In this document: positions 17,219-63,683 of the stretch, piece by piece | Numbering within the stretch: the first letter of the stretch is position 1 | Layout of the letters: each line of letters begins with the position of its first letter | Source: Alitta virens | Lineage: Eukaryota; Annelida; Polychaeta; Phyllodocida; Nereididae | Length of the DNA stretch: 64,000 nt | NCBI GenBank assembly: GCA_932294295.1 | Contig: OW028585.1 | Coordinates: forward strand, 1,522,001 to 1,586,000 | Reading direction: 5' to 3' | Position numbers and translations under genes: made by a program | The notes under the pieces: generated by a model | What the model was told of the DNA's origin: nothing | The model's database searches: none | What the model saw: only the letters and a program-made list of their open reading frames with translations

Positions 17219-17220
17219 TG

Positions 17221-25772: not shown

Positions 25773-27725
25773 CCCCCAGTGGGCAAAAGTTGTCTCATTG
25801 ACGTCATTTTGACATCTCTGCAAGATGTCTCATGACCAGCCCATACTGGTCTCATATGCAAACTTCAATGACATCTTATATGAGACGTCTAAAAGACGTC
25901 ATCAGAGGAGTCTTTTAGACTTATTTAGTTGACCAATATCTGACGTCTGAAATACGTCATCAGACGACGTCTTTTAGACGTATTTAGTCGACCAATATCT
26001 GACGTCTGAAATACGTCATCAGACGACGTCTTTTAGACATATTTAGTTGACCAATATCTGACGTCTGAAATACGTCATCAGAGGAGTCTTTTAGACTTAT
26101 TTAGTTGACCAATATCTGACGTCTGAAATACGTCATCAGACGACTTCTTTTAGACGTATTTAGTCGACCAACATCTGATGTCTGAAATACGTCATCAGAC
26201 GACGTCTTTTAGACGTATTTAGTCGACCAATATCTGACGTCTGAAATACGTCATCAGACGACGTCTTTTAGACGTATTTAGTCGACCAACATCTGACGTC
26301 TGAAATACGTCATCAGACGACGTCTTTTAGACGTATTTAGTCGACCAATATCTGACGTCTGAAATACGTCATCAGACGACGTCTTTTAGACGTATTTAGT
26401 CGACCAATATCTGACGTCTGAAATACGTCATCAGACGACGTCTTTTAGACGTATTTAGTCGACCAATATCTGACGTCTGAAATACGTCATCAGACGACGT
26501 ATTTTAGGCGTATTTAGTCGACCAATATCTGACGTCTGAAATACGTCATCAGACGACGTCTTTTAGACGTATTTAGTCGACCAATATCTGACGTCTGAAA
26601 TATGTCATCAGACGACGTCTTTTAGACGAATTTAGTCGACCAATATCTGACGTCTGAAATACGTCATCAGACGATGTCTTTTAGACGTTTTTAGACATCA
26701 TCTCACGACGTCTTTAAGACAAACTTTGCTTACAATCTTTGGACATATTGAATGTACAGAGAACACACACAAGTTTAAAATTAAGGAAAAAACTTTTTTA
26801 TATTGTGTAAAATAGCATACTTTACATGTATTGGATGCATGCATGCACATATGATGTAAATCTATACATGGACTGCTGCAATTAATCAAGTTTTAAAGAA
26901 ATATATATTTTTATTCATGTATGTCGAATTCTTCAGCCAAGTTGCATCCATAGTTCCATAGATCGCTGAAATGAATTTATATTCAGAAAATAAACTTAAC
27001 ACCAAATCATATATGAATCACCATGCAATGATGTGATAAATGGTATATATCACTCCATAGAAGAATTAATTAAGTTTAAAATCCAACTTCACTAGTATCC
27101 CTCCAAAGTTACTGAATGAATTTCAAATTCTTAATTGACAAGATGTGACCTCTCCTGCAGCTGCTCCAGATTCCTAGGTTTATGATTGGTCAGCCAGTTC
27201 AGATAATGATAGGCACATGGCTATAATATAAGGTGCACTGGGGTCAGGGTGATATTATAAGCCCATTAACCCCAATTGATGAACTTCAGCTTGGTTAGAA
27301 AAGTTGATAAATTTGCTATACAAAGATATATATTCTGAAAAGGAGATCACATTGTATTTTTCTATCCTAAATTAACTATATGAAGTGACATATATATTAA
27401 TTGCTAAAAATGTTAACTTGAAAATTGTATGAGACTTCATGGTTAAAGAATTGGTATGTTAAAGACCACAAGATTACGTTGATAAGACGTAAAAAAATTA
27501 CGTATTCTAGACTTAATTTATCGACGTAATAAAGACGTATAAATTAAGTAAAATAATTACGTCTGCTTGAGCACCAGAATAAGACGTCGATAAGACGTCA
27601 TATTTCCTGGTCATTTTGACGTCTTAAAAATTACGTCTCATTTACGTCTCATATCGGTCACCGACGTCATGACCAGTTTGAGACCAGAAAAAGACGTCAT
27701 TTTTACGACTTGTGCCCACTGGGGG
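25773..27725. mobile_element. 1.95-kb inverted-repeat DNA element carrying a 59-bp satellite
   Basis: The left end CCCCCAGTGGGCAAAAGTTG and the reverse of the right end, CCCCCAGTGGGCACAAGTCG, match in 17 of 20 positions. Further inward, GACGTCATTTT and CATGACCAG elements are mirrored as well. The interior holds a 59-bp satellite next to the left end, about 0.75 kb of AT-rich DNA, and a right side rich in GACGTC/TACGTC motifs. I see no transposase frame, so it would be non-autonomous. No convincing target duplication is visible, so the class is not assigned. Confidence 0.75.
25880..26695. repeat. 59-bp satellite rich in GACGTC palindromes
   Basis: About 14 highly similar units include TAGTCGACCAATATCTGACG, TCTGAAATACGTCATCAGAC and GACGTCTTTTAGACGT. 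Each unit holds several self-complementary hexamers (GACGTC, GTCGAC) and a CRE-like TACGTCA, so each can fold locally. Confidence 0.95.
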
Positions 27726-29521: not shown

Positions 29522-29543
29522 GTGACTTATATATACATACTCT

Positions 29544-29812
29544 CAATAGTGAGGTGGTCTTCATAGTGAGGTAGTCGTAAAAGAGAGGTAGTCTTAATAG
29601 TGAGGTGGTCTTAATAGAGGTAGCCTTAATAGAGAGGTGGTCTTAATAGTGAGGTGGTCTTAATAGAGGTAGCCTTAATAGAGAGGTGGTCTTAATAGTG
29701 AGGTGGTCTTTATAGAGAGGTGGGCTTAATAGTGAGGTGGTCTTTATAGTGAGGCAGTCTTAATAATGAGGTGGTCTGTATAGTGAGGTTGTCTTATAAG
29801 TGAGGGTAGGTT
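29544..29812 (+). repeat. 17-bp minisatellite array, GAGGTGGTCTTAATAGT orientation
   Basis: About 16 units of the same family as 5930, 7005 and 11330. Variants include GTAGTCGTAAAAGAG and units shortened to AATAGAGGTAGCC that occur twice in the same context, showing block copying. Confidence 0.93.
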
Positions 29813-30777: not shown

Positions 30778-31728
30778 TATCATTATAGCCACCTCGTTAA
30801 AATAGCATTAGTAGTACATATGAGATTTTAACTGGATTCTTTTATTTTGTATAGCCCCACAATCAAGGCCACCCCATAATAAGGACAGTAATTATGTGAT
30901 TACTTGTCATTGGGAGCATGTTCATGTGTGATATTGATCAGTGGTTTGTGGGAACGGATTTTGGGGAAAGGCTAAAATAACACGTGCCAAAAGGAAGGAT
31001 TATTATCAATCAGTGGTCGATCAATTGATTATAATTATAAAGATATGATTACGATAGGCGTATATATATGATTTTATCGAAATATGTGGAAGACTTTAAA
31101 TTTAATGGATTTATCAGACAATGGGTTATTAAGTCAGTCCATTGTAACTCTATCTGTAATGTATCCCTATCTAAAAAAAAAAGTAATATTAGTTAACCAG
31201 TTGCAAACATGATTCATAGCTATACTCCAGAAAGCATAAATATGCAAGGTTGGCTCTGCGTTGGACCAACGTTGGTCAGCTGACGCCAGGTCAACATTGA
31301 CCTACCTATCTGGCTGATATGCCATATTTGGGATGCCCTTTAATATTGATAAGCAAATACATCAATTTCAAATTTGTATGACGTTTATTTCAGAACATAA
31401 ATAAATAACAAATAAATATATGATCAATTTACAATTTTATAGTGTGGTGCTTCACAAATGAGTTCTGCTCACTGCCACTAGAAGTAAAGAAATTTAATGT
31501 TCATAACAATTTGTGAATAAATTTAAATTTCCTCTCGGAGCCACCATTATAGTGGAGGTTCCTTCGATATCTTCAGGTAGTTTATTCCAGAGGCGAGGTG
31601 CAATGAGCTAATTATTGTCATCGCTTCATTGATTGTATCAAGATACAGTAAGACCGATACGATACGTATATACTTTTGCACTGGCTGTTTTTGTTAAAAT
31701 AGCATTGTTCAACTTTTGCATTTACTTA
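30778..31728. other. Unique sequence left of the giant element
   Basis: GACCAACGTTGGTC at about 31264-31277 is a perfect 14-bp palindrome in a GC-richer patch (31250-31330). The last six bases (31723-31728) are the left target duplication of the element that follows. Confidence 0.45.
31723..31728. other. Left target-site duplication of the giant element
   Basis: TACTTA, identical to 49277-49282. Confidence 0.75.
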
Positions 31729-31795
31729 AGTAGTTATAGGGCTACGATAAAACGGTAGCTTCTGGTGGCCTACGACAGGCGGTGCTAGTGGTACC
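31729..31795 (+). repeat. Outer terminal inverted repeat, left
   Basis: 67 bp from AGTAGTTATAGGGCTACG to GGTACC. It matches 49210-49276 in reverse with one visible mismatch. Confidence 0.88.
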
Positions 31796-33134
31796 GGTGA
31801 TGGGTGCCCGAAGGCCTGACTGACGTGCTTAGCGTGACGGATGAGCCTGTGGAAGACCAGGGGCTATAGATTTATTATTGGGGAGTACGGGAGGTGGGTA
31901 CTATGAGGCTTAAGATTAGCATGTTACATAGTGGACATGATGTGCATATCAGTTTGTTGAATAATGATCTGTAGGGTACTTATTGCACTAACGTTAAACG
32001 CCACCCAAAACAGAGGATAGACGGGACTAGTGACCTGATGCTGTATAACAATGTGTAGATTGTTGTTGGGGTTTGTGTATGGAGCTGAAGATGATAAAGA
32101 ATAATATGGTAAGAGCAATATATCAATAGATATGTCTCTCTTAACATACAAGTAAAGGATATAGGTCTTGCAAACCTAGGTGTAGGATGACAGAGAGCCA
32201 TTCTTGTCACATCTGCATGACTGATGATCTCCCAAACACTTAAGGTCATAACACAATGTGTTGTAGTAATGTGTGAATACCAGTATTGATGACAGTTTGA
32301 TTACTATAGAGGATGTGAGATGTGTACCAAGGCTTGGGATTATCGTTTTGATTAATGATCTATCGGGCACTTATTGTACTAGTTTTAACTTCCCAAAGCC
32401 GACAACAGGCGATGCTAGTGGTCTGATGTTATATAGTACGTGATATGTATAACAATGTGTAGAACTATTGTTTTGGTTTGTCTATAAAAAGTTGAAGAAT
32501 GAACTATCTTACACACATGATAAAGAATAATACTGCAAGAGTGATATATTGATGGATATGTCTCTTAACAGAATGCATCATATTAATAGTTGACATACCA
32601 GCAAAAGGAGTAGGTGTCTTGTGAACCTCTGTGTAAAATGACAATACAAATTTTTTTAAATGCAACAGACAATATAGTTTTGACGACTAAGTGAAGGTAT
32701 GCAGACTTGAATGTCACAGGCTATATTATAGTTGATGCGTAATTGTATGTGAGCTGTATAACACAGTTATAATTATTGATCTATCTGGCACTTATTGTAC
32801 TATTTTAAGCTTCCTAAAGCTGACGACAGGCGGTGCTAGTGGTCTGATGTTATACAGTACGTGATAGGTATAACAATGTGTAGAACTATTGTTTTGGTTT
32901 GTATATAAAAGGTTGAAGAATAAACTATCTTACACCCATGATAAAGAATAATACTGCAAGAGTGATATATAGATGGATATGTCTCCTAACAGAATTAAAC
33001 ACATTACAACATATTAATGGCTGATATACCAGCAAAAAGGAGTAGGTGTCTTGTGAACCTCTGTGTAGAATGTCAAAGTTTTCTGTGCCATCATATGAAT
33101 ATATAAGCAGCAAACAACTATTCCAAAATACATT
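31796..33134 (+). repeat. Left subterminal module array (about 410-bp units)
   Basis: Three related units start near 31953, 32357 and 32776. Each carries an AATGATCTxTxGGxxCTTATTG start, a GACAGGCGGTGCTAGTGGTC-like core, ATAACAATGTGTAGAACTAT and ATGATAAAGAATAAT-CT, and a TTGTGAACCTCTGTGTA end. Divergence between units is much greater than between the inner arms. A fourth unit lies at 38722-39010. The right arm has only one or two diverged counterparts (about 48,960-49,200), so the subterminal parts of the two arms are not symmetrical. Confidence 0.75.
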
Positions 33135-33381
33135 TTAAAAAAAATGGAGATACCAATAGAACAACTATGCACAACTTCGCCCAAATCCTTCCTGTTTAAA
33201 ACATAGTAGTAGTAATAAAAAGTTTAATTAAGATGTAGTAACCCAGAACATTATTCACCCAGTAAGAGTGACCAGAAAGTTTGGCATTGAAGAAGTAATT
33301 TATAAAACTGTTCTATGATAACTGTTTTGAGTGGTAAAGACATTGTCCGAAACATTGTACCCTATGTGATGCCTGTGTTTG

Positions 33382-33564
33382 TTACATTTGTTGCAATATA
33401 GTTAAAAAGATGCCTACCTCCAACACATCTAAGCCATTTCTACATGTAAGTTCATCATGTCTGTTGTCACAAGGTGGTTTGTATTGACCAGCTGAATTAC
33501 TCAGAGGACGTCTTGTGAACCTCAGTGCCATCACTTGAAAGTATTTCAGAAAATATAAAATCAA
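33382..33564 (-). other. Repeated 60-73-codon open segment, copy 1
   Basis: The minus strand reads RRPLSNSAGQYKPPCDNRHD and ends in LTILQQM before a stop. Related segments are at 34461-34682 (minus), 40791-41033 (minus), 47242-47445 (plus) and 48345-48527 (plus). All point outward from the element centre. In the copies compared, most base differences change the amino acid, which argues against current purifying selection. I do not recognise a family. It may be an exon relic of a lost gene or chance. Confidence 0.3.
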
Positions 33565-36208
33565 AGTTGGAAAATGAAATATTACATATAAAGAGCTACA
33601 AACTTACCCAAGCTTCCTAGCCATAGTGACTCTCAAGATAATTTCCCATTTATATATGTTGGGGAAAGCATCCCCTATGCACAAGCAGCAATGGGGGTTA
33701 GATACCTGCCTGATCAGAGGGCCAGCAATGGGGGTTATAATTCAGTACCATCATAATCAAAGGGATATATGCCAGTATACTACCCCAATATTAACACAAC
33801 ATGCATCCATTAATTGCTATAGGCATTTCTAAGATGCAATGCAATAATGATTGTGTCTATACAATGTAAAAGAGTTGAGTTTCTTGCATGGAAGGCAGTC
33901 ACGAAAGCCTGCTCCAGGTAGCTCAACCAAGTTAAAAGGTGAGAAGTTAATATACTTCTTAACTAACAATCAGAAATATATTTTCACATTAACTGAAAAT
34001 GTGTAAAGTAAAGATAGCATAACTGAAATATACATAGATTAATTTATCCTACTCAAGAACAACCGAATACAATATAACATTAATTTTTAACAAAAAAAAC
34101 ATAATTATTAAATAATTTTTTTGTAGTTAAAGAGTAAGTCAGTGACTCCAGGGTGGAACAAGTTACAGTAAATGCACTAATGTTGCTATCAAGTTAATTG
34201 GCACAGAGAGGGATTATATCTAATGATACTTTTGAAATATATTGAGAATTAATGAAGAAAGACATTTAAAACAAACATTAATGACTATATAGAATTGTGC
34301 TCTTATAGACTCTTGAAAACAATCTGACAATTAGATAGACAGAAGAACCACACATTGCTGTCAATTTGTAACTCGAATATCCATGTAGTTAATTGGCAAT
34401 TAAAACTTTTGTGGCATTTCAGTGTCCAAAACATTGTACCCTATGTGATGCCTGTGTTTGTTACATTTGTTGCAATATAGTTAAAAAGATGCCCACATCC
34501 AACACATCTAAGTCATTTCTACATTGAAGTTCATCATGTCTATTGTCACAAGGTGGTTTGTATTGACCATCTGAATTACTCAGAGGACGTCTTGTGAACC
34601 TTTGTGTAGAATGACAAAGTTTATAAGCAGCCAATGGTAATTTTGCCATCTTGTCATCGTCATGGCTAATTATTATGTTCACAGGGAAGCAACCGAAATT
34701 AAAATGGAGAATTTAGGCTACAGCAAACTTGAAGTTAGTTGTTTTATATAAGAGATTTTATCTATATTAATGAGCATTTTGGCGACTTCACTGCTGCTTG
34801 TACAATCAGTTTCTACATACTAAAGCTTATTTGGCGATCTACAGTGTTACTGTGAAAACAGAACGATATCCTTTTTAGTATATAATGGTTCTTATCCTTG
34901 CTCAACCTAAATGAAAACAATAATACTGAGCGGGTTCTTCAAAGTTAGGGAAGTAGAGATATTCCGATTGTTTAGCGCCCACCAGATCATTGCATTGTCA
35001 TTCTGGTTATCCTATAGATGTCTTGTATGTTCACAGACTGAGTTTCTCTAGCATGCACCTTCTAACAGGCTAACCAATCATGTCCCCTTGGTAACACAAG
35101 GTCTTTAGAGTCTCACTGACTATAATACTATTGTCGGAAACATGATATATGTCCACTTGTTATATTGCACTTGATATGAAAGGTTTGGAGCAGCACAAAA
35201 TGGACAGAAATATTTCTAACAAGTCAGCTTACTATTTAATCCCTCTCTGTCCCAATTAACTTAATAATTATTACCAATGGTGATTTTTGCTATCTTGTCA
35301 TCATCATGGCTGATTATTATGTTCACAGAGCAGCAACAGAAATTACAATGGAGAATTTAGGCTACAGCAAACATGAAGTTAGTTGTTTTATATTAGTGAT
35401 TTTATCTATATTAATGAGCATTTTGGCGACTTTACTGCTGCTTGTTCAATCACTTTCTACATACTAAAGCTAATAATATGTAGCCATAAGTTATGTTAGT
35501 GTCAGGACCAAGTATGAAATGACAAGCTGTTGTTCACTACCTGTAGACAAATAATATGATGCTCCTTCCTGTACCTGTAAAAACAAATGAAAACACTCGA
35601 ATCCATGTCAATCCAGTCAAACACGACATAGATCTGCACAAAACACATGGAGTGCAAACAATCAAAAACATCACTACTAATGACTCAATGGTAAAAAAAT
35701 ATGATCAAGCGATAGCTTTTTCTTACTAGTAATTACACACATGGTAACAAAACTCAGTATATTACACCTCCTAAAACTGCAAGCAGGAATTCAGACTATA
35801 TTAATAAGAACATTTACCCTTTGATAGAACCAAATGTGCAATACAAATATGTATGTGTGCTTTTATGTACATTTTCCTTTTGTCAACAAAGTATATGACA
35901 CTTTCATGTGCATCTGGTTATTTCAGTCTTCAGAGTACTGATACAAGGTTGATGTATTCATACTGGTATTGTAAATATACAGGTTCTAAGTAAATAATTC
36001 CTTACTATTCAACATCTTGTCTTTATTTCAGGTAAGCATATCCTCTGTAATGTTTATCAACTAATATGTTCTCTTACTCTCCTTGTTGATTGTACATTAT
36101 ATGGTATATGACAATGGAAATCAGCATGTTCATTAATTATAATAATGTCATAGCCTCAGGTATCAATAGATCATTGTTCTACCATAAACCATCTATTGCT
36201 TGTCGTGT

Positions 36209-36215
<7 letters not shown>

Positions 36216-36248
<33 letters not shown>

Positions 36249-36262
36249 TATATATAAATATA
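36216..36262. repeat. (TA)n tract inside the left arm
   Basis: Dinucleotide run with AATATATA interruptions. The mirrored tract at 45644-45689 differs in length, as expected for a mutable repeat. Confidence 0.93.
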
Positions 36263-36270
36263 TCAGCATA

Positions 36271-37363
36271 TCAGCATGTTCATGAATTATAATAATGTCA
36301 TGATACAAGTTCTGTATTTATGGAATAGGTGTAGTATGTGCATGGAAGAAGTGAATCAAAATACCTGAAGACAGCTTTTGACTATGGTCAGTATTGTAAG
36401 AATTTATAAGTTTAATGGATAATTAATTAGAAATGTAAAGATAAGTATATTCTCTCCAATTTCCTTGCCACTTGTAGATACTATCACTTCATGAAAGTAC
36501 TCCTGAGGATACAGACTCAAGATGTGAATTGCAAATCAACATGATCAATAGTTGGATACACATAAAAGCATCTGCCAAAAGGATTTCTCACCCAGGATTA
36601 AGATAAACACCACACACTGTAATTGGCATTAATACCGCTATTACTTAACAACTATATTGTGCAACACAAATGAATATGCTTGAAAACTGATAAATATGTA
36701 TATTCCATGCTTATTGTTGCACAATTGCCCCCCCAATTAGGGGGCGGGTCTTTTGGTCATTAAGCTTTTGGTGATATAGTGATTCTACCTTTGATGTACC
36801 TCAGTGGTAAGATGCTGCAATGGTTTGTGGACCTGTGAATGGAACAATTTGTAATGTAGCACATCTATTGAGCCCTCACAAAACAAACCAAGGTTTGTCT
36901 GTTGAGAGAAGTTAAACAGGTGTATGTTTTGTAAAAGCTGTAATACGTAACTTTAACCGAAAATGACATGAATTGGTTAATGTTTTTATTATTTTTGGTT
37001 TAGTGTTTAACATACAGTAATACCAGTTATGAATTTTGAGCCCCAGCCCAGAGTCAAATCAGTCTTCAAGCTCATACCCAGCCCATTTCAGAATTGATGT
37101 GTTCTGCCTTCTCCACCCAAGCTTCGACTTTAAGGGTAAATACTTTTTTGCAATCTCTTGGAGAATAGTGCTGTGCTGTACTCATAATAAATTGAAAAAC
37201 TACAATGCTGAGAGTACATGTTACTATGTTTTTGTTGTAACTCTGACAATTATTAAATAAATATGAGGCACCACTCACACTAATGAAATATTAGGCTATC
37301 TTACAGAGCTAATGGCAGATGACTTTAATACCTATAAATTACATTAGGTTAAGGACAAGTTGT
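36271..37363 (+). repeat. Direct duplication M1, copy 1 (about 1.1 kb)
   Basis: It matches 37602-38712 in the same orientation from TCAGCATGTTCAT to TTAGGTTAAGGACAAGT, with small deletions either way (for example CAATGGTTTGTGG text is kept in both). It includes a C-run/G-run hairpin around CCCCCCAATTAGGGGGC (about 36729-36745). Confidence 0.85.
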
Positions 37364-37462
37364 TTTACTGAGTACATGTGAATAATTGTTAGCTCAACAG
37401 CAGAAGGGATCTGAACCATACCCTGCAGACACATCTCACCATAAATATTCTTTTTTCTGTTG

Positions 37463-37601
37463 TTTCTAATTTATCTAGTATTATATTCCTCTTGTTCTAA
37501 TATTGGATAAATTCAAGGTAGCCCCTAACACATCCCTGTGATCTATATAATACTATGTATATTGTTTAAATCCAATAAATGAACTCAACTCAACTCAATA
37601 T
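37463..37601 (+). mobile_element. LINE-like 3' end with (CTCAA)n tail, copy 2
   Basis: TGTGATCTATATAATACTAT, AATCCAATAAATGAACTCAA and then CTCAACTCAA. It shares its end with 25193-25247 and ends exactly where duplication M1 copy 2 begins. It is therefore an insertion into the giant element or part of the duplication breakpoint. Confidence 0.65.
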
Positions 37602-38712
37602 CAGCATGTTCATTAATTATAATAATGTCATGATACAAGTTCTGTATTTATGGAATAGGTGCTGTATGTGCATGAAAGAAGTGAAACAAAATACCTGAAG
37701 ACAGCTTTTGACTATGGTCAGTATTGTAAGAATTTATAAGTTTAATGGATAATTAATTCGAAATGTAAAGATAAGTATATTCTTTTCACTTTCCTTACCA
37801 CTTGTAGATACTATCACTTCATGGAAGTACTCCCGAGGATACAGACTCAGTATGTGAATTGCAAATCAACATGATCAATAGTTGGATTAATACCGCTATT
37901 ACTTAACAACTATGCAAGTAAATGAAATCAAATTTACCTGTATTATCCATAAGTATGTATATTGTGCAACACAAATGAATATGCTTGAAAACTGATAAAT
38001 ATGTATATTCCATGCTTTTTGTTGCACAATTGCCCCCCAATTAGGGGCAGGTCTACTGGTCATTAAGCTTTTGGTGAGATAGTGATTCTACCTTTGATGT
38101 ACCTCAGTGTTCTCTCCTGGTCTAATTTATCCAAGGTAAGATGCTGCAATGGTTTGTGGGCCTGTCCTGTTGGATGGGGGGTGCTTACATACAACATGCC
38201 TGTCAGACCTGGGATGTGAATGGAACAATTTGTAATGTAGCACATCTATTGAGAGAAGTTAAACAGGTGTATGATTTGTAAAAGCTCTAATACGTAACTT
38301 TAACCGTAAAAATTTCATGAATTAGTTAATGTTTTTATTATTTTTGGGTTAGTGTTTAACATACAGTAATACCAGTTATGAATTTTGAGCCCAAGCCCCA
38401 AGTCAAATCAGTCTTCAAGCTCATACCAAGCCCATCTCAGAATTGATGTTTTCTGCCTTCTCCACCCAAGCTTCGACTTTAAGGGTAAATACTTTTTTTG
38501 CAATCTCTTGGAGAATAGAGCTGTGCTGTACTCATAAATAAATTGAAAAACTGCATGCTGAGAATACATGTTGCTATGTTTTTTGTTGTAACTCTGACAA
38601 TTATCAAATAAATATGAGGCACCACTCACACTAATGAAATATTAGGCTATCTTACAGAGCTAATGGCAGATGACTTTAATACCTATAAATTACATTAGGT
38701 TAAGGACAAGTA
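37602..38712 (+). repeat. Direct duplication M1, copy 2
   Basis: See 36271-37363. This copy carries an extra segment near 38107-38230 (TCTCTCCTGGTCTAATTTAT onward) absent from copy 1. Confidence 0.85.
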
Positions 38713-40560
38713 ATTTTCTGTTTAAGCTTCCCAAAGCTGATGACAGGCGGTGCTAGTGGTCTGATTTTATGAAGTATGTGATAGGTATATCAATGTGTAG
38801 AACTATTGTTTTGGTTTGTATATAAAAGGTTGAAGAATGAACTATCTTACACCCATGATAAAGAATAATACTGCAAGAGTGATATATAGATGGATATGTC
38901 TCCTTACAGAATTAAACACATTACAACATATTAATGGCTGATATACCAGCAAAAAGGAGTAGATGTCTTGTGAACCTCTGTGTAGAATGTCAAAGTTGCT
39001 GTGCCATCATATGAATATATAAGCAAACAACTATTCCAAAATACATTTAAAAAAAATTGAGATACCAATAGAACAACTATGCACAACTTTGCACAAATCC
39101 TTCCTGTTTTAAACATAGTAGTAGTAATAAAAAGGTTAATTAAGATGTAGTAACACAGAATGTTATTCACCCAGTAAGGCAAAGAGTTTGCAGAAGTTTG
39201 GCATTGAAGAAGTAATTATAAAGCTGTTCTATGATAACTGTTTTGAGTGGTAAAGACCGTTTCTAACACGTTTACCCTATGTGATGCCTGTGTTTGTTAC
39301 ATTTGTTGCAATATAGTTAAAAAGATGACTACCTGCAACACATCTAACCATTTCTACATGAAAGTTCATCATGTCTATTGTCACAAGGTGGTTTTTATTG
39401 ACCATCTGAATTGCTCAGAGGACGTCTTGTGAACCTCTGTGCAGAATGACAAAGTTTCTGTGCCATCATATGAATATATAAGCAGCAAACAACTATTCCA
39501 AAAAATGGAGATACCAATAGAACAACTATGCACAAATCCTTCCTGTTTTATAACGTAGAAGTAGTAATAAAAAGGTTAATCACCCATGAAGACAAAGAGC
39601 GTCCCGAAGTTTGGCATTGAAGAAGTAATTTATATAGCTGTTTTATGATAACTGTTTTGAGATATGCAAGTATGTATAGCTATATATCAACAGCGAGGTG
39701 GGTTACATATATTGAATTATAGTTTTAAAAAAAGGCACCTAATTTTATCTTATGTAATGGAACTCCTTACAGATTGCCCTTAGGCAATCAGTGGCAGTGT
39801 GTTCAATGAGATGCTACTCTCAATTTAATGATGCCTGCAGGTATTTCTTGTCCTGTTCAGCTTAAATAGACCAGAGTACAGCACATACAACACTGTTTCT
39901 TACACACACATGTATATCAATTAAAAATAAGATAACTTTCCATAGGTCTGTGTCATGTAGATCGTAAGCAACATACTTCTGCTTGAAAGTTATTAACTGA
40001 CTGAGCACAGTCTCCATTTTTTTAATTAGTAATGACAGTGACTTTCATTAAATTTCCTTATTTGTAGTATAATATTCAACCTTGTAAGCTGTAATTCATT
40101 ATAAATGGCCTTACTTTCGGTGACATAGGCTTGTTACCAACAATTATTAGGAGGAAGGTTGAAATGACAAGACCGTTGTACAGGTTGATAAGAATGGCTG
40201 ACATAGGATTAACAAGCTGTTTATGAATGATCTGTATAACTGTAAAACCTCAACATTAAGAAGTTGTCTTCTGATTTATTTTGCATTTATGAGAAAACCA
40301 ATCAGATGTACTTGTATGAAACAGAGATTGTGAATGTAGAATTGAATTATTGAGAATTACTGAAGAAAGACATGTTAAATATGTTTTAATTATGAACCTT
40401 TGTGTAGGTTGACATGGAAAAATAAACTGGAAACTATGCGCAACTTTGCACAAATCCTTTCTGTTTTATAACATAGCAGTAATATGATAAGGTTAATTCA
40501 GATGTAGTAACTCAGAACAATTAGTATTACAAAATAATTTGTTGCTATCAGAAAATGTAC
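38713..40560 (+). repeat. Mosaic of left-arm modules plus unmatched sequence
   Basis: 38722-39010 repeats the subterminal module. 39000-39240 and 39430-39660 each repeat the ATGGAGATACCAATAGAACA to GGCATTGAAGAAGTAATT block of the left arm, and 39240-39440 repeats the 65-codon segment region in a frame-broken state. 39660-40380 has no match that I can see elsewhere in the window. Confidence 0.65.
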
Positions 40561-41220
40561 TAATACTGTTGAAAAGATTTGAGAATTACTGAAGAAAGAC
40601 ATTTCAAACAAACATTAATGACTATATGGAATTATGCCCTTATAGACTCTTCAAAACAATCTGATAAGTAGATGGACAGAAGGACCACACATTGCTGTCA
40701 ACTTGGATATCCATGTAGTTAATTGGCAATCAAAGCTTTTGGGGCATTTCAGTGTCCGAAACATTGTACCCAATGTGATGCCTGTGTTTGTTACATTTGT
40801 TGCAATGTAGTTAAAAAGATGCCCACCTCCAACACATCTAAGCCATTTCTACATGAAAGTTCATCATGGTTACTGTCACAAGGTGGTTTGTATTGACCAT
40901 CTGAATTTCTCAGAGGACATTTTGTGAACCTTTGTGTAGAATGAAAAAGTGTCTGTGCCATCCTATGAATATATAAGCAGCCAATGGTGATTTTTGCCAT
41001 CTTGTCATCATCATGGCTGATTATTATGTTCACAGAGAAGCAACAGAAATAACAATGGAGACTTTAGGCTACAGCAAGCTTGAAGTTAGTTGTTATATAT
41101 ACAAGAGATTTTATCTATATTAATGAGCATTTTGGCGACTTCACTGCTGCTTGTACAATTAGTTTCTACATACTAAAGCTAATAATATGCAGCCATAAGT
41201 TATGTTAGTGTCAGGACCAA
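40561..41220 (+). repeat. Direct copy of left-arm segment 34240-35512, internally deleted
   Basis: It follows the left arm from TGAGAATTA-TGAAGAAAGAC through the 65-codon segment (40791-41033) to ATAAGTTATGTTAGTGTCAG, with a gap of several hundred bp relative to the arm. Confidence 0.75.
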
Positions 41221-41251
41221 TTGTTTTACCCGACTACATGTCTATGCATAA

Positions 41252-42337
41252 TTGTTAATGCTGTGGAAAAGGACCTTCTCATTTGCCTTAGACAGATCTC
41301 ACCATACTCATACATCAGTGAAATTTAATGATAGGTATGAAAATGACGTACTACCTGTAGACAATAATATGATGCTCCTACCTGTACCTGTAAATACAAA
41401 AGGAAAGAATCGAGGTTTTCCATGTCAATCCAGCCAAACATTGCACAAAACACATGGAGTGCAAACAATCAAAAACATCACTACTAAATATGATTCAATG
41501 GTAAAAAAATATGATCAAGTGACGGCCTTTTCTTATTAGTAGTTACACTCATGGCAACAAAATTCAGTATATATTCACACCTCCTAAATATGGTAGAACA
41601 AGTATCCATTAATATCTGAGGCTATTACATTATATTATTAATGAATATGCTGATTTCCATTGTCATATACCATATAATGTACAATTAACAAGGAGAGTAA
41701 GAGATATGCTTACTTGAAATATAGACAAGACGTTAAGGAATTATTTACTCAGAACCAGTATATTTACAATACCAGTATGAATACATCAACCTTGTATCAG
41801 TACTCGGAAGACTGAAATTTACCAAATGCACATGAAAGTGTCAAATACTTTGTTGACAAAAAGGAAATGTACATAAAGCACACATACATATTTGTATTGC
41901 ACATTTGGTTCTATCAAAGGGTGAAATGTTCTTATTAATATAGTCTGAATTCCTGAATTGTCACAGTATGGATATCCTCTGTCACTGACTTTGACTTATA
42001 TGATTGAGACTGCTTGCAGTTTTAGGAGTTGTAATATACTGAGTTTTGTTGCCATGTGTATAACTAGTAGTAAGAAAAGACCATCGCTTGATCATATTTT
42101 TACCAGTGATGTTTTTGATTGTTTGCACTCCATTTTTTTTGTGCATATCTATACCATGTTTGACTGGATTGACATAGAATACTCAAGTGTTTCCTTTTGT
42201 ATTTACATCATATTATTTGTCTACAGGTAGTGAACAACAGCTTGTTATTTTCATACTTGTCATTAAATTTCGCTGATGTATGAGTATGGTGAGATCTGTC
42301 TGAGGGAAATGTGTAAGTCCTTTCCCACAGCTTTAAC
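41252..42337. repeat. Local inverted repeat (hairpin) in the centre, copy 1
   Basis: 41252-41545 and 42068-42337 are reverse complements of each other: GACAGATCTCACCATACTCA versus TGAGTATGGTGAGATCTGTC, and GTCTACAGGTAG with its mirror. The spacer is about 0.5 kb. The same hairpin is present again at about 43755-44800. Confidence 0.8.
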
Positions 42338-43089
42338 AATTATGCATAGTGTGACAAGATAGGTTGGTTGATTTTTGTTTTTTGCCGAGAAATGTGCATT
42401 TGATCTTTAAATTATAGGCTTACACTTGTCAAAGATCATGTACCAATATATACTGATTCAGACATCAGATATGATCTCGGGCCTACATTTTAATGACTGC
42501 GGGGCAGGGCAGGCTTGACTGTCAGGCTCTGCAGGGCAGTGCGGGTGTGGACAGGATTCCTCTGATGCTGGGCGGGTGTGGGTGAAAAATTAAAATGAAC
42601 TGCAGTGAGGGGCAGGCTGCAGGCTGCTTATGATGTGGGGCAGTTGTGGGCATTGATTCACTGCCCGTCCTCATCTCTAATACAGACAGCTGATAGAGGT
42701 GTACATCGAGTTTGATATCTGGTGGTTGAAGCATTCCTAATATTAACGAGTTAAAGGAATGAGGGCTAGCAACAACAAAAGTATTTCATGAAAATACATT
42801 TATATTAAATTAAATTGCATTTCTTCTTAGGCCAGTAGTAACAATCACTTTTCAATTTCCTTGCCACTTGTAGATAGAACATAAGCTTGTCAGCATTAAT
42901 CTATCCGAAATAAACCTATTATTATAGATACTGTCTCTTCATGTGAGAACTCGCAAACTGAGGATATAGACTCAGTAACTCGAGAAACCTGGAGGGAACC
43001 CTGTAAAAATTGTCTTAGTGGATTCAGATTTTATAGTAACTAGCAAAACCTTACTTAAATGAAACTTCGATTAATGTTTCTGAATTTCA
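41286..43089 (+). repeat. Direct duplication M2, copy 1 (about 1.8 kb)
   Basis: Nearly identical to 43757-45558 at a constant offset of 2,469 bp. It includes a GC-richer patch at 42500-42735 (GCGGGGCAGGGCAGGC onward) that stands out from the AT-rich interior. The 70-codon minus frame at 42522-42734 is conserved between the copies, but the copies are so alike that this says little. Confidence 0.88.
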
Positions 43090-43756
43090 AAGTGGAATTA
43101 TGAGCATAGCAACAAGGAAGTTGCAAATTATTTTAACCATGAAATAAGCAAGGATGAGATAGATACCTGCTGCTGGAATTGAGATATTTGGATATTGGCA
43201 TCAGCCGGAGAGACTTCAGTGGTAGTGATTACGTCTGAAGACCTTATTTACAGCTTTGCCCTTAAGAATCATTTCCCCTTCCGTAACTGACACTAGGATG
43301 GTGCATGAGGAGTACATGTTCGTCAAATGAATCTTTAGAAGTATAGTAGAGCTGGAATTATTATTAAGATTAGTAACTATATGTTGTTAAGACCACTGGG
43401 AAGTAACAAGTGACATCCTACTCTGGATTTTTGGTAAGTTGCAAGCACAACTTACTTTTAGCTGAAAAAGATAGAGCACACCTTGTGTGACACGCTCAAG
43501 CCAAAGTGGTTTATTTCTTAACAATTGTTAAGACCACTGGGAAGTAATAGTTTTTTCTAGTTTTTGCATGAATCCTACATAAAGCAGAATAGGGGTTGCA
43601 TTTATTTAATAATGCTTTTCCCTGTCAGCTACACTAGGGCGAACAAGTGGCTGTATAACTCAGTGGACACATGATGTTCCATTAAAGGCATAGGAATAAT
43701 TATTAAAACAATTGCTTTCAAATGATATGGCAGCTTTAAATTAGCAAATTTTACAC
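43090..43756. other. Spacer between M2 copies
   Basis: AACAATTGTTAAGACCACTGGGAAGTAA occurs twice in part (about 43385 and 43520), a small direct repeat. Nothing else recognised. Confidence 0.45.
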
Positions 43757-45558
43757 TGCCTTAGACAGATCTCACCATACTCATACATCAGTGAAATTTA
43801 ATGATAGGTATGAAAATGACGACTACCTGTAGACAATAATATGATGCTCCTACCTGTACCTGTAAATACAAAAGGAAAGAATCGAGGTTTTCCATGTCAA
43901 TCCAGCCAAACATTGCACAAAACACATGGAGTGCAAACAATCAAAAACATCACTACTAAATATGATTCAATGGTAAAAAATATGATCAAGTGACGGCCTT
44001 TTCTTATTAGTAGTTACACTCATGGCAACAAAATTCAGTATATATTCACACCTCCTAAATATGGTAGAACAAGTATCCATTGATATCTGAGGCTATTACA
44101 TTAGATATTAATGAATATGCTGATTTCCATTGTCATATACCATATAATGTACAATTAACAAGGAGAGTAAGAGATATGCTTACTTGAAATATAGACAAGA
44201 CGTTAAGGAATTATTTACTCAGAACCAGTATATTTACAATACCAGTATGATACATCAACCTTGTATCAGTACTCGGAAGACTAAAATTTACCAAATGCAC
44301 ATGAAAGTGTCAAATACTTTGTTGACAAAAAGGAAATGTACATAAAGCACACATACATATTTGTATTGCACATTTGGTTCTATCAAAGGGTGAAATGTTC
44401 TTATTAATATAGTCTGAATTCCTGAATTGTCACAGTACGGATATCCTCTGTCACTGACTTTGACTTAAATGATTGAGACTGCTTGCAGTTTTAGGAGTTG
44501 TAATATACTGAGTTTTGTTGCCATGTGTGTAACTACTAGTAAGAAAAGACCATCGCTTGATCATATTTTTTACCAGTGATGTTTTTGATTGTTTGCACTC
44601 CATTTTTTTGTGCATATCTATACCGTGTTTGACTGGATTGACATAGAATACTCAAGTGTTTCCTTTTGTATTTACATCATATTATTTGTCTACAGGTAGT
44701 GAACAACAGCTTGTTATTTTCATACTTGTCATTAAATTTCGCTGATGTATGAGTATGGTGAGATCTGTCTGAGGGAAATGTGTAAGTCCTTTCCCACAGC
44801 TTTAACAATTAAGCATAGTGTGACAAGATAGGTTGGTGGATTTTTGTTTTTAGCCGAGAAATGTGCATTTGATCTTTAAATTATAGGCTTACACTTGTCA
44901 AAGATCATGTACTAATATATACTGATTCAGACATCAGATATGATCTCGGGCCTACATTTTAATGACTGCGGGGCAGGGCAGGCTTGACTGTCAGGCTCTG
45001 CAGGGCAGTGCGGGTGTGGACAGGATTCCTCTGATGCAGGGCGGGTGTGGGCGAAAAATTAAAATGAACTGCAGTGTGGGGCAGGCTGCAGGCTGCTTAT
45101 GATGTGGGGCAGTTGTGGGCATTGATTCACTGCCCGTCCTCATCTCTAATACAAACAGCTGATAGAGGTGTACATCGAGTTTGATATCTGGTGGTTGAAG
45201 CATTCCTAATATTAACGAGTTAAAGGAATGAGGGCTAGCAACAACAAAAGTATTTCATGAAAATACATTTATATTAAATTAAATTGCATTTCTTCTTAGG
45301 CCAGTAGTAACAATCACTTTTCAATTTCCTTGCCACTTGTAGATAGAACATAAGCTTGTCAGCATTAATCTATCCGAAATAAACCTATTATTATAGATAC
45401 TGTCTCTTCATGTGAGAACTCGCAAACTGAGGATATAGACTCAGTAACTCAAGAAACCTGGAGGGAACCCTGTAAAAATTGTCTTAGTGGATTCAGATTT
45501 TATAGTAACTAGCAAAACCTTACTTAAATGAAACTTCGATTAATGTTTCTGAATTTCG
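43757..45558 (+). repeat. Direct duplication M2, copy 2
   Basis: Counterpart of 41286-43089. It ends where the right inner arm starts, at the shared AATGTTTCTGAATTTC. Confidence 0.88.
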
Positions 45559-45640
45559 ATTCACTTCTTCCATGCACATACAACACCTATTCCATATATA
45601 CAGAACTTGTATCATGACATTATTATAATTCATGAACATG

Positions 45641-45694
<54 letters not shown>

Positions 45695-48600
45695 ACATGA
45701 CAAGCAATAAATGGTTTATGGTAGAACAATGATCTATTGATACCTGAGGCTATGACATTATTATAATTAATGAACATGCTGATTTCCATTGTCATATGCC
45801 ATATAATGTACAATCAACAAGGAGAGTAAGAGAACATATCAGTTGATAAACATTACAAAGGATATGCTTACCTGAAATATAGACAAGATGTTGAATAGTA
45901 AGGAATTATTTACTTAGAACCTGTATATTTACAATACCAGTATGAATACATCAACCTTGTATCAGTACTCTGAAGACTGAAAATAACCAGATGCACATGA
46001 AAGTGTCATATACTTTGTTGACAAAAAGGAAAATGTACATAAAAGCACACATACGTATTTGTATTGCACATTTGGTTCTATCAAAGGGTAAATGTTCTTA
46101 TTAATATAGTCTGAATTCCTGCTTGCAGTTTTAGGAGGTGTAATATACTGAGTTTTGTTGCCATGTGTGTAATTACTAGTAAGAAAAGGCTATCGCTTGA
46201 TCATATTTTTTACCATTGAGTCATTAGTAGTGATGTTTTTGATTGTTTGCACTCCATGTGTTTTGTCCAGATCTATGCCATGTTTGACTGGATTGACATG
46301 GATTCGAGTGTTTTCATTTGTTTTTACAGGTACAGGAAGGAGCATCATATTATTTGTCTACAGGTAGTGAACAACAGCTTGTCATTTTCATACTTGGTCC
46401 TGACACTAACATAACTTATGGCTGCATATTATTAGCTTTAGTATGTAGGAAGTGATTGAACAAGCAGCAGTAAAGTCGCCAAAATGCTCATTAATATAGA
46501 TAAAATCACTTATATAAAACAACTAACTTCATGTTTGCTGTAGCCTAAATTCTCCATTGTAATTTCTGTTGCTGCTCTGTGAACATAATAATCAGCCATG
46601 ATGATGACAAGATGGCAAAAATCACCATTGGTAATAATTATTAAGTTAATTGGGACAGAGAGGGATTAAATAGTAAGCTGACTTGTTAGAAATATTTCTG
46701 TCCATTTTGTGCTGCTCCAAACCTTTCATATCAAGTGCAATATAACAAGTGGACATATATCATGTTTCCGACAATAGTATTATAGTCAGTGAGACTCTAA
46801 AGACCTTGTGTTACCAAGGGGACATGATTGGTTAGCCTGTTAGAAGGTGCATGCTAGAGAAACTTAGTCTGTGAACACACAAGACATCTATAGGATAACC
46901 AGAATGACAATGCAATGATCTGGTGGGCGCTAAACAATCGAAATATCTCTACTTCCCTAACTTTGAAGAACCCGCTTAGTATTATTGTTTTCATTTATGT
47001 TAAGCAAGGATAAGAACCATTATCTACTAAAAAGGATATCGTTCTGTTTTCACAGTAACACTGTAGATCGCCAAATAAGCTTTAGTATGTAGAAACTGAT
47101 TGTACAAGCAGCAGTGAAGTCGCCAAAATGCTCATTAATATAGATAAAATCTCTTATATAAAACAACTAACTTCAAGTTTGCTGTAGCCTAAATTCTCCA
47201 TTGTAATTTCGGTTGCTTCCCTGTGAACATAATAATTAGCCATGATGATGACAAGATGGCAAAAATCACCATTGGTTGCTTATAAACTTTGTCATTCTAC
47301 ACAAAGGTTCACAAGACATCCTCTGAGTAATTCAGATGGTCAATACAAACCACCTTGTGACAATAGACATGATGAACTTCAATGTAGAAATGACTTAGAT
47401 GTGTTGGAGGTGGGCATCTTTTTAACTATATTGCAACAAATGTAACAAACACAGGCATTACATAGGGTACAATGTTTTGGACACTGAAATGCCACAAAAG
47501 TTTTGATTGCCAATTAACTACATGGATATTCGAGTTACAAATTGACAGCAATGTGTGGTTATTCTGTCTATCTAATTGTCAGATTGTTTTGAAGAGTCTA
47601 TAAGAGCATAATTCTATATAGTCATTAATGTTTGTTTAAAATGTCTTTCTTCATTAATTCTCAATATATTTCAAAAGTATCATTAGATATAATCCCTCTC
47701 TGTGCCAATTAACTTGATAGCAACATTAGTGCATTTACTGTAACTTGTTCCACCCTGGAGTCACTGACTTACTCTTTAACTACAAAAAAAATTATTTAAT
47801 AATTATGTTTTTTTTTGTTAAAAATTAATGTTATATTGTATTCGGTTGTTCTTGAGTAGGATAAATTAATCTATGTATATTTCAGTTATGCTATCTTTAC
47901 TTTATACATTTTCAGTTAATGTGAAAATATATTTCTGATTGTTAGTTAAGAAGTATATTAACTTCTCACCTTTTAACTTGGTTGAGCTACCTGGAGCAGG
48001 CTTTCGTGACTGCCTTCCATGCAAGAAACTCAACTCTTTTACATTGTATAGACACAATCATTATTGCATTGCATCTTAGAAAATGCCTATAGCAATTAAT
48101 GGATGCATGTTGTGTTAATATTGGGGTAGTATACTGGCATATATCCCTTTGATTATGATGGTACTGAATTATAACCCCCATTGCTGGCCCTCTGATCAGG
48201 CAGGTATCTTACCCCCATTGCTGCTTGTGCATAGGGGATGCTTTCCCCAACATATATAAATGGGAAATTATCTTGAGAGTCACTATGGCTAGGAAGCTTG
48301 GGTAAGTTTGTAGCTCTTTATATGTAATATTTCATTTTCCAACTTTGATTTTATATTTTCTGAAATACTTTCAAGTGATGGCACTGAGGTTCACAAGACG
48401 TCCTCTGAGTAATTCAGCTGGTCAATACAAACCACCTTGTGACAACAGACATGATGAACTTACATGTAGAAATGGCTTAGATGTGTTGGAGGTAGGCATC
48501 TTTTTAACTATATTGCAACAAATGTAACAAACACAGGCATCACATAGGGTACAATGTTTCGGACAATGTCTTTACCAATCAAAACAGTTATCATAGAACA

Positions 48601-48775
48601 GCTTTATAAATTACTTCTTCAATGCCAAACTTTCTGGACACTCTTACTGGGTGAATAATGTTCTGTGTTACTACATCTGAATTAACCTTTTTTATTACTA
48701 CTACTATGTTTTAAACAGGAAGGATTTGGGCGAAGTTGTGCATAGTTGTTCTATTGGTATCTCCATTTTTTTTAA
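45557..48775 (-). repeat. Inner inverted-repeat arm, right (about 3.2 kb)
   Basis: Mirror image of 33135-36355. The 65-codon segments at 47242-47445 and 48345-48527 correspond to those at 34461 and 33382. Confidence 0.9.
45644..45689. repeat. (TA)n tract inside the right arm
   Basis: Mirror of 36216-36262. Confidence 0.93.
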
Positions 48776-49209
48776 CATGATAGTTCTTCAAACATGTAAT
48801 AAGATCTGTAAAGGAGTCGTCACTCCTTGCCACTTCTATGTAATGTTCTTCAGCACACATTAAACAGGGCACAATGTTAAATGCAACCCATGTTAGGCTG
48901 TAGGTCTCTGTTGGTACAAGTTTGCAGTCTCCTAATTAATGTATTTGTAGTAATCAAGCTATAGCCCCTGGCGCTCACACACAACCACTAACTCCGCCTG
49001 TCGTTGACTGCGCAAAGTGTAAATTAGTACAATAAGTGCCTGACAGCTCATTAATCAACAGGATAATTCTACTCTTGATAAACATATCATGTCCTCTAAA
49101 TCCATAGCTTGTAGCTCCTGGCGTTCAACCTGCTCATCCCTCACTCGGAGCACGTCGTTTAGGCCTTCGGGCACCCTTTCGAGGTACGTCGTCCATACAT
49201 ATCGTCGCA
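48776..49209 (-). repeat. Right subterminal region, diverged from the left
   Basis: Contains GCCCGAAGGCCT-type text (mirror of 31805-31820), GACAGGCGGAGTTAGTGG-like and CTTATTGTACTAATTT-like module parts on the minus strand. It shares the module but is shorter than the left side and not collinear with it. Confidence 0.65.
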
Positions 49210-49276
49210 GGTACCACTAGCACCGCCTGTCGTAGGCCGCCAGAAGCTACCGTTTTATCGTAGCCCTATAACTACT
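49210..49276 (-). repeat. Outer terminal inverted repeat, right
   Basis: Mirror of 31729-31795, ending CTATAACTACT. Confidence 0.88.
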
Positions 49277-49282
49277 TACTTA
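49277..49282. other. Right target-site duplication of the giant element
   Basis: TACTTA, identical to 31723-31728. Confidence 0.75.
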
Positions 49283-49309: not shown

Positions 49310-49430
49310 CAGCATTCCAAATCGGGCCAGCGTAGTTTCTGTATCAGCTGCCGTTGTTACAAAATCGTTTTGACATCGCCGACATCGTTCTGACATTGAA
49401 ACGTGTTGGAATGCTATCTGGCTTGTATTC
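49310..49430 (-). mobile_element. Short inverted-repeat element (MITE-like, family D), copy 2
   Basis: CCCAGGCAGCATTCCAAATC at the left and TTGGAATGCTATCTGGCT at the right are inverted repeats. The reverse complement matches 17108-17218 throughout. It lies only about 30 bp from the end of the giant element. Confidence 0.75.
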
Positions 49431-58345: not shown

Positions 58346-60092
58346 AATGCAATGCTAAATCTAAAAATGAAACACTCCTCAATGCCAAATCAAAACATGA
58401 AACATTCCTCAATGCCAAATCAAAACATGAAACACTTCTCAATGCCAAATCAATACATGAAACACTCCTCAATGCCAAATCTAAAAATGAAACACTCCTC
58501 AATGCCTAATCAAAAAAAGAAACACTCCTCAATGCCTAATCAAAAAATGAAACACTCCTCCATGCCAAATCAAAAAATTAAACACTCCTTAATGCCAAAT
58601 CTAAAAATGAAACACTCCTCAATGCCAAATCAAAAAAACGAAACACTCCTCAATGCCAAATCTAAAAATGAAACACTCCTCAATGCCAAATCAAAAAATG
58701 AAACTCCTCAATGCCAAATCTAAAAATGAAACACTCCTCAATGCCAAATCAAAAAATGAAACACTCCTCAATGCCAAATCAAAAAATTAAACACTCCTTA
58801 ATGCCAAATCTAAAAATGAAACACTCCTCAATGCCAAATCAAAAAAATGAAACACTCCTCAATGCCAAATCTAAAAATGAAACACTCCTCAATGCCAAAT
58901 CAAAAAATGAAACACTCCTCAATGCCAAATCAAAAAATGAAACACTCCTCAATGCCAAATCTAAAAATGAAACACTCCTCAATGCCAAATCAAAAAATTA
59001 AACACTCCTTAATGCCAAATCTAAAAATGAAACACTCCTCAATGCCAAATCAAATAAATGAAACACTCCTCAATGCCAAATCAAAAAATGAAACACTCCT
59101 CAATGCCAAATCTAAAAATGAAACACTCCTCAATGCCAAATCAAAAAATGAAACACTCCTCAATGCCAAATCAAAAAATGAAACACTCCTCAATGCCAAA
59201 TCAAAAAATGAAACACTCCTCAATGCCAAATCTAAAAATGAAACACTCCTCAATGCCAAATCAAAAAATGAAACACTTCTCAATGCCAAATCTAAAAATG
59301 AAACACTCCTCAATGCCAAATCTAAAAATGAAACACTCCTCAATGCCAAATCAAAAAATGAAACACTCCTCAATGCCTAATCAAAAAATGAAACACTCCT
59401 CAATGCGAAATCAAAAAATGAAACACTCCTCAATGCCAAATCAAAAAATGAAACACTCCTCAATGCCAAATCTAAAAATGAAACACTCCTCAATGCCAAA
59501 TCTAAAAATGAAACACTCCTCAATGCCAAATCAAAAAATGAAACGCTCCTCAATGCCAAATCAAAAAATGAAATGCTCCTCAATGCCAAATCTAAAAATG
59601 AAACACTCCTCAATGCCAAATCAAAAAATGAAACACTCCTCAATGCCAAATCAAAAAATGAAACGCTCCTCAATGCCAAATCTAAAAATGAAACACTCCT
59701 CAATGCCAAATCAAAAAATGAAACGCTCCTCAATGCCAAATCTAAAAATGAAACACTCCTCAATGCCAAATCAAAACATGAAACACTCCTCAATGCCAAA
59801 TCTAAAAATGAAACACTCCTCAATGCCAAATCTAAAAATGAAACACTCCTCAATGCCAAATCTAAAAATGAAACACTCCTCAATGCCAAATCAAAAAATA
59901 AAACACTCCTCAATGCCAAATCAAAAAATGAAACACTCCTCAATGCCAAATCAAAAAATGAAACACTCCTCAATGCCAAATCTAAAAATGAAACACTCCT
60001 CAATGCCAAATCAAAAAATAAAACACTCCTCAATGCCAAATCTAAAAATGAAACACTCCTCAATGCCAAATCTAAAAATGAAACACTCCTTA
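58340..60092 (+). repeat. 30-bp satellite (AATGCCAAATCxAAAAATGA AACACTCCTC), about 58 units
   Basis: Tandem 30-bp units dominated by two variants, AAATCAAAAAATGA and AAATCTAAAAATGA, with indels near the left edge and perfect register later. Because 30 is divisible by three and the unit has few stops, long frames appear on both strands: up to 346 codons reading KMKHSSMPNQ decapeptides, and up to 258 codons on the minus strand. No start context, signal, splice site or flanking coding supports a gene. I treat these as artefacts. Confidence 0.95.
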
Positions 60093-60248
60093 ATATAACT
60101 ATGACTAGAACCATCCAAGAAAAATTATAAGAAATGATATCAAGATCTTTCATATCTCCTGGGTTTTCCCATCAAGGAGATTCAGTCATACAATTAACTA
60201 AAGCATCTCAGTTCTACAGACTGTTATGTCGAACAAACAAGTGTGGAT
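60093..60248. other. Short unique spacer before the LTR element
   Basis: The last four bases (GGAT, 60245-60248) are the left target duplication of the LTR insertion. Confidence 0.5.
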
Positions 60249-60492
60249 TGTAAGGTCCCTCTGATTGACTCAGACCAAGAGCAAGAGTTTAAGTTTCACA
60301 TATTTATTCCTCCTGTCCCAATGTCACATACGTCCCATCTGCCCAATAGCTTAGACCTTACTCAGAGCACAAAGCCCTGCTTAACACCAGCAGCCCCTAT
60401 CACGTGATACCCACGCCATGGCAGTGGAAATACCCCACATTCTAGGTCAACGGCTGCTAGCATTCAAACACAGCAGGATGCAGGTCATCACA
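60249..60492 (-). repeat. 3' LTR (element orientation)
   Basis: TG...CA boundaries with the 4-bp duplication outside. On the minus strand it includes AATAAA (plus-strand TTTATT at 60303-60308), a candidate polyadenylation signal, a CACGTG palindrome, and TGAGTCA near the end. Confidence 0.95.
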
Positions 60493-60506
60493 TCACATCC
60501 TCCCGA
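60493..60506 (-). promoter_or_regulatory. Candidate polypurine tract
   Basis: On the minus strand GGGAGGATGTGA directly precedes the 3' LTR, in the position where a plus-strand primer is expected. It is shorter and less pure than usual. Confidence 0.4.
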
Positions 60507-60509
60507 TGA

Positions 60510-60531
60510 GAAGGCATGTCCTCATGCCTTC
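60510..60531. other. Perfect 9-bp-stem hairpin next to the polypurine tract
   Basis: GAAGGCATG, loop TCCT, CATGCCTTC. It lies in the element just inside the 3' LTR. Its role is unknown. Confidence 0.6.
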
Positions 60532-61917: not shown

Positions 61918-62111
61918 TCACACCACGTGGCCTGGGGACTCCTCAACCCCTTCCAGCTCCACGTGGCCTGTTGGGACCACATTTGGCTCCCCAGCATCAG
62001 GAGGCATGGCCTGTGGCATTCCGCACCTCAGCGTCAGGGGCGGATTCTTCACAGCCAGGCGAGGGGGCTGCCTGGTCACCACCACTATACAGTGAAGGGT
62101 CAGTGTAAGGG

Positions 62112-63665: not shown

Positions 63666-63683
63666 GTCCCACATCGGGCGCCA
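63666..63683 (-). promoter_or_regulatory. Primer binding site, tRNA-Lys-like
   Basis: On the minus strand TGGCGCCCGATGTGGGAC begins two bases inside the 5' LTR. TGGCGCCC is the complement of a tRNA 3' end ...GGGCGCCA as in animal lysine tRNAs. The inner bases differ from the forms I know, so the exact isoacceptor is uncertain. Confidence 0.85.

Follow-up and report, generated by a model that had tools for sequence, protein, structure and literature searches.

The stretch of Alitta virens DNA analyzed here, 64,000 nucleotides of contig OW028585.1 (assembly GCA_932294295.1, forward-strand positions 1,522,001 to 1,586,000) and called the window below, contains a 17.5-kb element that ends like a Polinton, also known as a Maverick, and in which no recognizable genes are found. 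What kind of element is this? Is it a non-autonomous relative of the Polintons that keeps their size and ends, as the initial annotation proposed? Or has its length arisen in some other way? The observation that raised these questions is confirmed, and three things can be added to it: the full motif at the ends, the repetition of 90% of the element within itself, and a repeated sequence of 20 bases (the 20-mer). The reading that we favor, at a probability of roughly 0.6, is that of a non-autonomous Polinton/Maverick relative that depends for its movement on proteins provided in trans and whose interior has been re-expanded in the fashion of Foldback elements. The element is not filed as a Polinton, the defining genes having been sought and not found; the claim is that of a non-autonomous element using Polinton-type ends.

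The element occupies positions 31729-49276 of the window, a length of 17,548 bp, and the hexamer TACTTA that had been seen on both outer sides is there to be read in the window at 31723-31728 and 49277-49282, as a 6-bp target-site duplication. The left end, at 31729, starts AGTAGTTATAGGGC and the right end, at 49276, finishes GCCCTATAACTACT. The terminal inverted repeats (TIRs) are 67 bp long (left, 31729-31795, + strand; right, 49210-49276, - strand), and 66 of the 67 bases are identical in the inverted alignment. Inverted ends of the form AG...CT had been described, and more exactly the outermost six bases are AGTAGT on the left and ACTACT on the right, which is (AGT)2 and (ACT)2. Directly inside the TIRs the two ends are poorly alike, with 31 differences over 119 aligned bases.

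How often would such a pair of ends be met by chance? There are 20 copies of AGTAGT and 11 of ACTACT in the window, giving 122 pairs at spacings of 0.5-40 kb, and one of these pairs, the element's own ends, has identical 6-bp flanks. The mean number of pairs with matching flanks in 200 first-order Markov shuffles was 0.075, a count that does not yet demand the 67-bp inverted repeat. Inverted pairs with matching flanks of 5-8 bp occur 13 more times in the window; seven are simple repeats and six lie inside the element. The joined flanks of the element match no uninterrupted copy in the window that could serve as an empty site, and the nearest repeat starts 30 bp from the site. At that distance to the right of the element, 49313-49421 is 75% like 17112-17220, which is the edge of one copy of a dispersed repeat (5038-5365 and 17207-17527, in opposite orientations and 88% identical).

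These ends are of a published kind. Intact vertebrate Mavericks are described with 6-bp target duplications, and their commonest end motif is (AGT)2//(ACT)2, with (AG)3//(CT)3 also present and a third type in one eel (PMC8097293). Their length is given as 16,862 ± 1,678 bp and that of their TIRs as 46-1,447 bp, with a mean of 402 ± 276 bp (PMC8097293). The element resembles them in its (AGT)2//(ACT)2 ends, in its perfect 6-bp duplication, in a TIR that falls within the range, at its short end, and in a size that is 0.41 standard deviations (SD) above the vertebrate mean and within the class of about 15-25 kb, though its non-redundant content is only 7.0-9.2 kb. The chance that a terminal hexamer fits one of the two published 6-bp motifs is 2/4096, or 2/256 if AG is preset. 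Duplications of 6 bp are also usual in the IS3EU/GingerRoot group of eukaryotic elements (PMC10045372). We consider an element of that type very improbable here. The termini of that group are given as TA..TA, occasionally TG..CA (PMC10045372), whereas those of the element are AG..CT, and with the end placed instead at the closest TA (TAGTTATAGGG), the outer hexamers would be CTTAAG and CTTACT, which match at only four of six bases.

Does the element encode anything? Its longest stop-to-stop frame has 106 amino acids, fewer than the mean of 119.6 for the longest frames of 100 shuffled sequences. There are 42 frames that reach 60 amino acids, where the same shuffles average 32.3, and this excess is put down to internal repetition. 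For the gene search the six-frame translation was divided into 18 pieces, with X at stops, and compared with Pfam. Fifteen of the 18 pieces gave no row and three gave one row each below the cut-off (PDE8 once and VHL twice, E-values 0.083-0.14). Protein-primed DNA polymerase B and retroviral-type integrase had no match in any of the 18 pieces. The pieces likewise contained no match to capsid, protease or ATPase genes, for some of which the Pfam models may be poor, and no transposase remnant, which speaks further against an IS3EU/GingerRoot-type element. The control was to run the X-coded comparison on three frames of the window's long terminal repeat (LTR) retrotransposon. It recovered a 23-residue integrase remnant in one of the three (E-value 2.4e-6). 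The intact gag-like frame of that retrotransposon is not recognized by Pfam, so that genes without a good model can escape. The internal copies of the element offer a second view of coding content. Between seven pairs of copies there are 47 gaps, of which 33 are single-base and 4 are multiples of three, and the codon phase of the mismatches is even in four of the seven pairs (P 0.2-0.94). From gap lengths and mismatch phase we read the interior as non-coding DNA. The possibility that genes are present but short or spliced was rejected from the lengths of the open reading frames (ORFs), the six-frame Pfam comparison and the gap lengths. Within the reach of Pfam and of ORF length, the claim that the element is gene-less holds.

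If there are no genes, what fills 17.5 kb? The answer is copies of the element itself. Within it, 15,829 of the 17,548 bases (90%) match elsewhere in the element. Four control stretches of the window, of which three overlap, have 22-32%. Stripped of redundancy, the element amounts to 7,016 bp under the loosest setting, or to 9,172 bp when matches have to reach 80%, and therefore duplication has produced around half of the length or more. This is where the initial annotation has to be amended. Its full-length giant non-autonomous Polinton relative stands as a single insertion with a 6-bp duplication, Polinton-type ends and size, and no recognizable genes. The size, however, was not simply kept; it was largely built up by successive nested duplications, both direct and inverted.

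The modules can be followed from left to right. A subterminal array of units of about 0.4 kb (31957-33076, + strand) holds a weak unit at 31957-32146 and others at 32348-32769 and 32772-33076; four such units are recognized in the element, one of them weak, and their number is unequal on the left and right sides. The inner mirrored arms of about 3.2 kb, already noticed from the sequence, lie at 33131-36362 (+ strand) and, inverted, at 45553-48779 (- strand). They are 98.5% identical over the aligned bases, with 48 substitutions and 10 gaps spread along the length. A TA/AT microsatellite is present in both arms (36213-36263 and 45644-45690), and its length differs between them. Direct duplication C (36216-38717, + strand) consists of copies at 36216-37366 and 37541-38717 that are 4.6% diverged over aligned bases, with several gaps of 26-72 bp in their alignment. 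Next comes another copy of the left half, partial and colinear (38704-41588, + strand), which is like parts of 32365-35775 and is 6-8% diverged in the three stretches measured. The left half-element is present three times, once partial and once inverted. An old palindromic module forms the core (41242-42349, with arms at 41242-41588 and 42021-42349), and direct duplication E has copies at 41284-43088 and 43757-45557 (both + strand), with 17 differences over 1,800 aligned bases.

The copies differ widely in their divergence. Uncorrected divergence is 0.9% for E, 1.5% for the arms, 4.6% for C, 6-8% for the second left half, 9.4% for the palindrome and 20% between subterminal units 1 and 2; corrected distances between internal copies reach 23%. 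The longest stretches without an internal copy are 39662-40347 (686 bp), within the second left-half copy, and 43089-43750 (662 bp); neither has a Pfam match, and it is possible that they are remains of older unique sequence. The alignments of E copy 2 and the right arm overlap by 5 bp (45553-45557), which fits a template switch at short homology, and as a single 5-bp junction it is a weak sign of one. A nested pair of insertions, with the inner palindrome sitting in a smaller outer element, was rejected, as no terminal repeat with its own duplication is seen by eye at 33131 or 48779.

Near-identical inverted arms and direct copies are also the spots where assemblies fail. Could the arms then be an artefact, produced by a mis-joined palindrome or by two haplotypes? 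We hold this to be the least probable explanation of all, since the substitutions and gaps between the arms run along their length, the arms are 9.2 kb apart, and both lie inside TIRs bordered by a perfect duplication.

Long, internally repetitive inverted arms are the architecture of Foldback-type elements, and the element has it. An alternative is a Foldback-type element unrelated to Polintons, which would belong to a different or unknown superfamily of DDE transposases (P, Mutator or other) and have its AGTAGT end by coincidence. This is possible, though less probable than the favored reading. Long inverted arms of repeats and subterminal tandem units that are unequal on the two sides agree with descriptions of Galileo, in which the arm repeats also hold transposase-binding sites (PMC3688188, PMC3573991). 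Foldback-like Mutator elements are on record as well. The MuDR/IS256 group is credited with duplications of 4-10 bp (PMC10045372), and because this range includes 6, the 6-bp duplication alone does not exclude a Mutator relative. On the other hand, the duplications of Galileo are 7 bp (PMC3573991) and not 6 as here, and the ends of the element are of the Maverick type. Such an origin would need the end-motif coincidence of 2/4096 (2/256 with AG given) on top of the size.

The element is also like Galileo in having a candidate binding site that recurs and that lies no more than about 70 bp from the end. The 20-mer CGACAGGCGGTGCTAGTGGT sits within the TIRs, 45-64 bases in from each end (31773-31792, + strand; 49213-49232, - strand, exact). 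At up to two mismatches it is found six times in the window, always in the element, and all six copies face inward from the nearer end. The remaining four are at 32403-32422 (+ strand, two mismatches), 32824-32843 (+ strand, exact), 38741-38760 (+ strand, one mismatch, within the second left-half copy) and 48984-49003 (- strand, two mismatches, inward from the right end). The only other matches have six mismatches and fall in the retroelement's LTRs. Of the internal copies, three are in units that are themselves duplicates diverged by 8-15%, and the agreement of the internal 20-mers with one another is therefore not independent. Agreement between the TIRs and the subterminal units is independent. 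By eye, TIR and subterminal copies have no sequence in common beside the 20-mer, and the surroundings of 32824-32843 are unlike the TIR. The 20-mer is probably a binding site for an integrase or a replication protein, by analogy with Galileo, where the outermost binding site is some 70 bp from the end and others are located in the arm repeats (PMC3688188). Exact TIR or 20-mer patterns were found at 0 loci in viral and prokaryotic contig collections, and phages compared with 31729-48900 in 'distant' mode had no match either; both results say little on animals.

Was the element inserted with its genes, or did it move after they were gone? An autonomous Polinton might have landed at this site and been stripped there of all its genes by deletions and duplications, which would explain why the ends and the size class are shared with Polintons. 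Such decay predicts that the TIRs have diverged at least as much as the internal copies. Instead, the TIRs differ at one of 67 bases (95% upper bound of divergence 6.9%), the internal copies by up to 20%, and the target duplication is perfect. If the TIRs were identical at insertion and mutation rates are equal, the probability of at most one difference in 67 is 0.07 at 6.3% and 0.03 at 7.8% divergence, the values for two parts of the second left half. It is 0.011 at 9.4% (the palindrome) and 6e-6 at 20% (the oldest subterminal pair). At the divergence just inside the TIRs it is 4e-8. Because the TIRs are far more alike (1/67) than the adjacent interior (31/119), loss of genes in place after insertion is unlikely, and we judge it very improbable as an explanation of the locus. 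These comparisons suggest that the element moved when it was already gene-less.

Several points weigh against a non-autonomous Polinton relative. The 67-bp TIR is short for a Maverick, 1.2 SD below the mean, and other literature gives hundreds of bases. The element is tied to Polintons by its end motif, by the length of its duplication and by its size, with no gene remnant, and long, internally repetitive arms are typical of Foldback and Galileo, not of Polintons. The reading comes from a single copy, and the AGTAGT/ACTACT motif is documented for vertebrates in PMC8097293. The age argument is weak with respect to the younger copies (P is 0.18 at 4.6%, that of C, beside the 0.07 at 6.3%), and it starts from TIRs that were identical at insertion. 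Finally, the codon phase of mismatches is somewhat uneven in three of the seven copy pairs (P 0.046-0.059), with no consistent pattern.

How would a non-autonomous element with Polinton-type ends work? An autonomous Polinton elsewhere in the genome would supply a polymerase with its terminal protein and an integrase. The protein-primed polymerase would copy the ends, and the repeated AGT triplet may reflect the need of its 'jumping-back' start. Repeats at the ends have been tied to this start of protein-primed replication, which is known in adenoviruses and tectiviruses (PMC8097293). The retroviral-type integrase would then join the ends to the target with a 6-bp stagger. Between moves, template switching, replication errors or unequal exchange may add direct and inverted copies to the interior, which would grow as in Foldback and Galileo until the size band of complete Polintons is reached.

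How does the element compare with known systems? From Polintons it differs in that no polymerase, integrase, ATPase, protease or capsid genes were found, in its short TIR and in an interior made mostly of self-copies. Like miniature inverted-repeat transposable elements and internally deleted DNA transposons it has ends only and no coding capacity, yet it is as long as a full Polinton, unlike ordinary non-autonomous DNA transposons; coding elements are generally longer than their non-autonomous partners (PMC8969392). Large retrotransposon derivatives are also long, non-coding and moved in trans, but they are LTR elements, rarely exceed 10 kb and have no inverted ends (PMC6431247). Non-autonomous Polintons by that name were not found in the literature searched, and wider searches showed none among the titles and opening lines of abstracts that were listed, which covered part of the papers matched. 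Repeat libraries such as Repbase or Dfam may contain elements of this kind.

The window contains other repeats and elements. The LTR retrotransposon (60247-63929, reverse strand) has 246-bp LTRs that are 98.8% identical, a gag-like frame of 411-412 amino acids (62284-63519) with no Pfam match, and a short C-terminal integrase remnant, Integrase_p58_C, in the frame at 62115-62348; it seems to be a copy that lacks most of pol. Ten ORFs outside the 17.5-kb element gave one real Pfam match, this integrase remnant, and two sub-threshold rows. A 17-bp minisatellite (GGTCTTAATAGTGAGGT and its reverse complement) forms arrays at 5933-6184, 7007-7202, 11330-12770 and 29541-29805, in both orientations, spread as if carried by a mobile element. 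There is a 30-bp tandem repeat at 58350-60094 (58 copies, 94% match), in which several frames are open over hundreds of codons, and a 59-bp tandem repeat at 25884-26694 (13.8 copies, 95% match) whose unit contains GACGTC words.

Why should an element without genes be 17 kb long? It has no coding reason for such a length. It could be a full-length Polinton satellite, having the replication start and the integration ends of a Polinton and selected to rebuild itself by duplication to the length that the helper capsid accepts, in the style of defective-interfering genomes, an idea that we hold to be rather unlikely. Defective-interfering virus genomes are gene-less, carry reiterated cis-acting sequences or ends, and are near full genome length. 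The comparison differs in virions, a helper and packaging, for which there is no evidence here, and a literature search on defective adenovirus genomes gave no paper. Selection for rebuilt length and unconstrained, neutral duplication would both fit, and a single element does not tell them apart. In Mavericks, the spread of about 10% in size around 17 kb has been taken as a sign of constrained genome size, and particles are said not to have been observed (PMC8097293). The formation of virus particles by Polintons in animals is a question still debated on the grounds of genes and selection. If the element were a satellite of this kind, its length would be indirect evidence that Polinton DNA is packaged in particles in this host. 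Should the lengths of such elements scatter, the length-constraint reading falls. If instead they cluster at about 17 kb with varied interiors, then length would be what is selected, and packaging would become testable by sequence alone.

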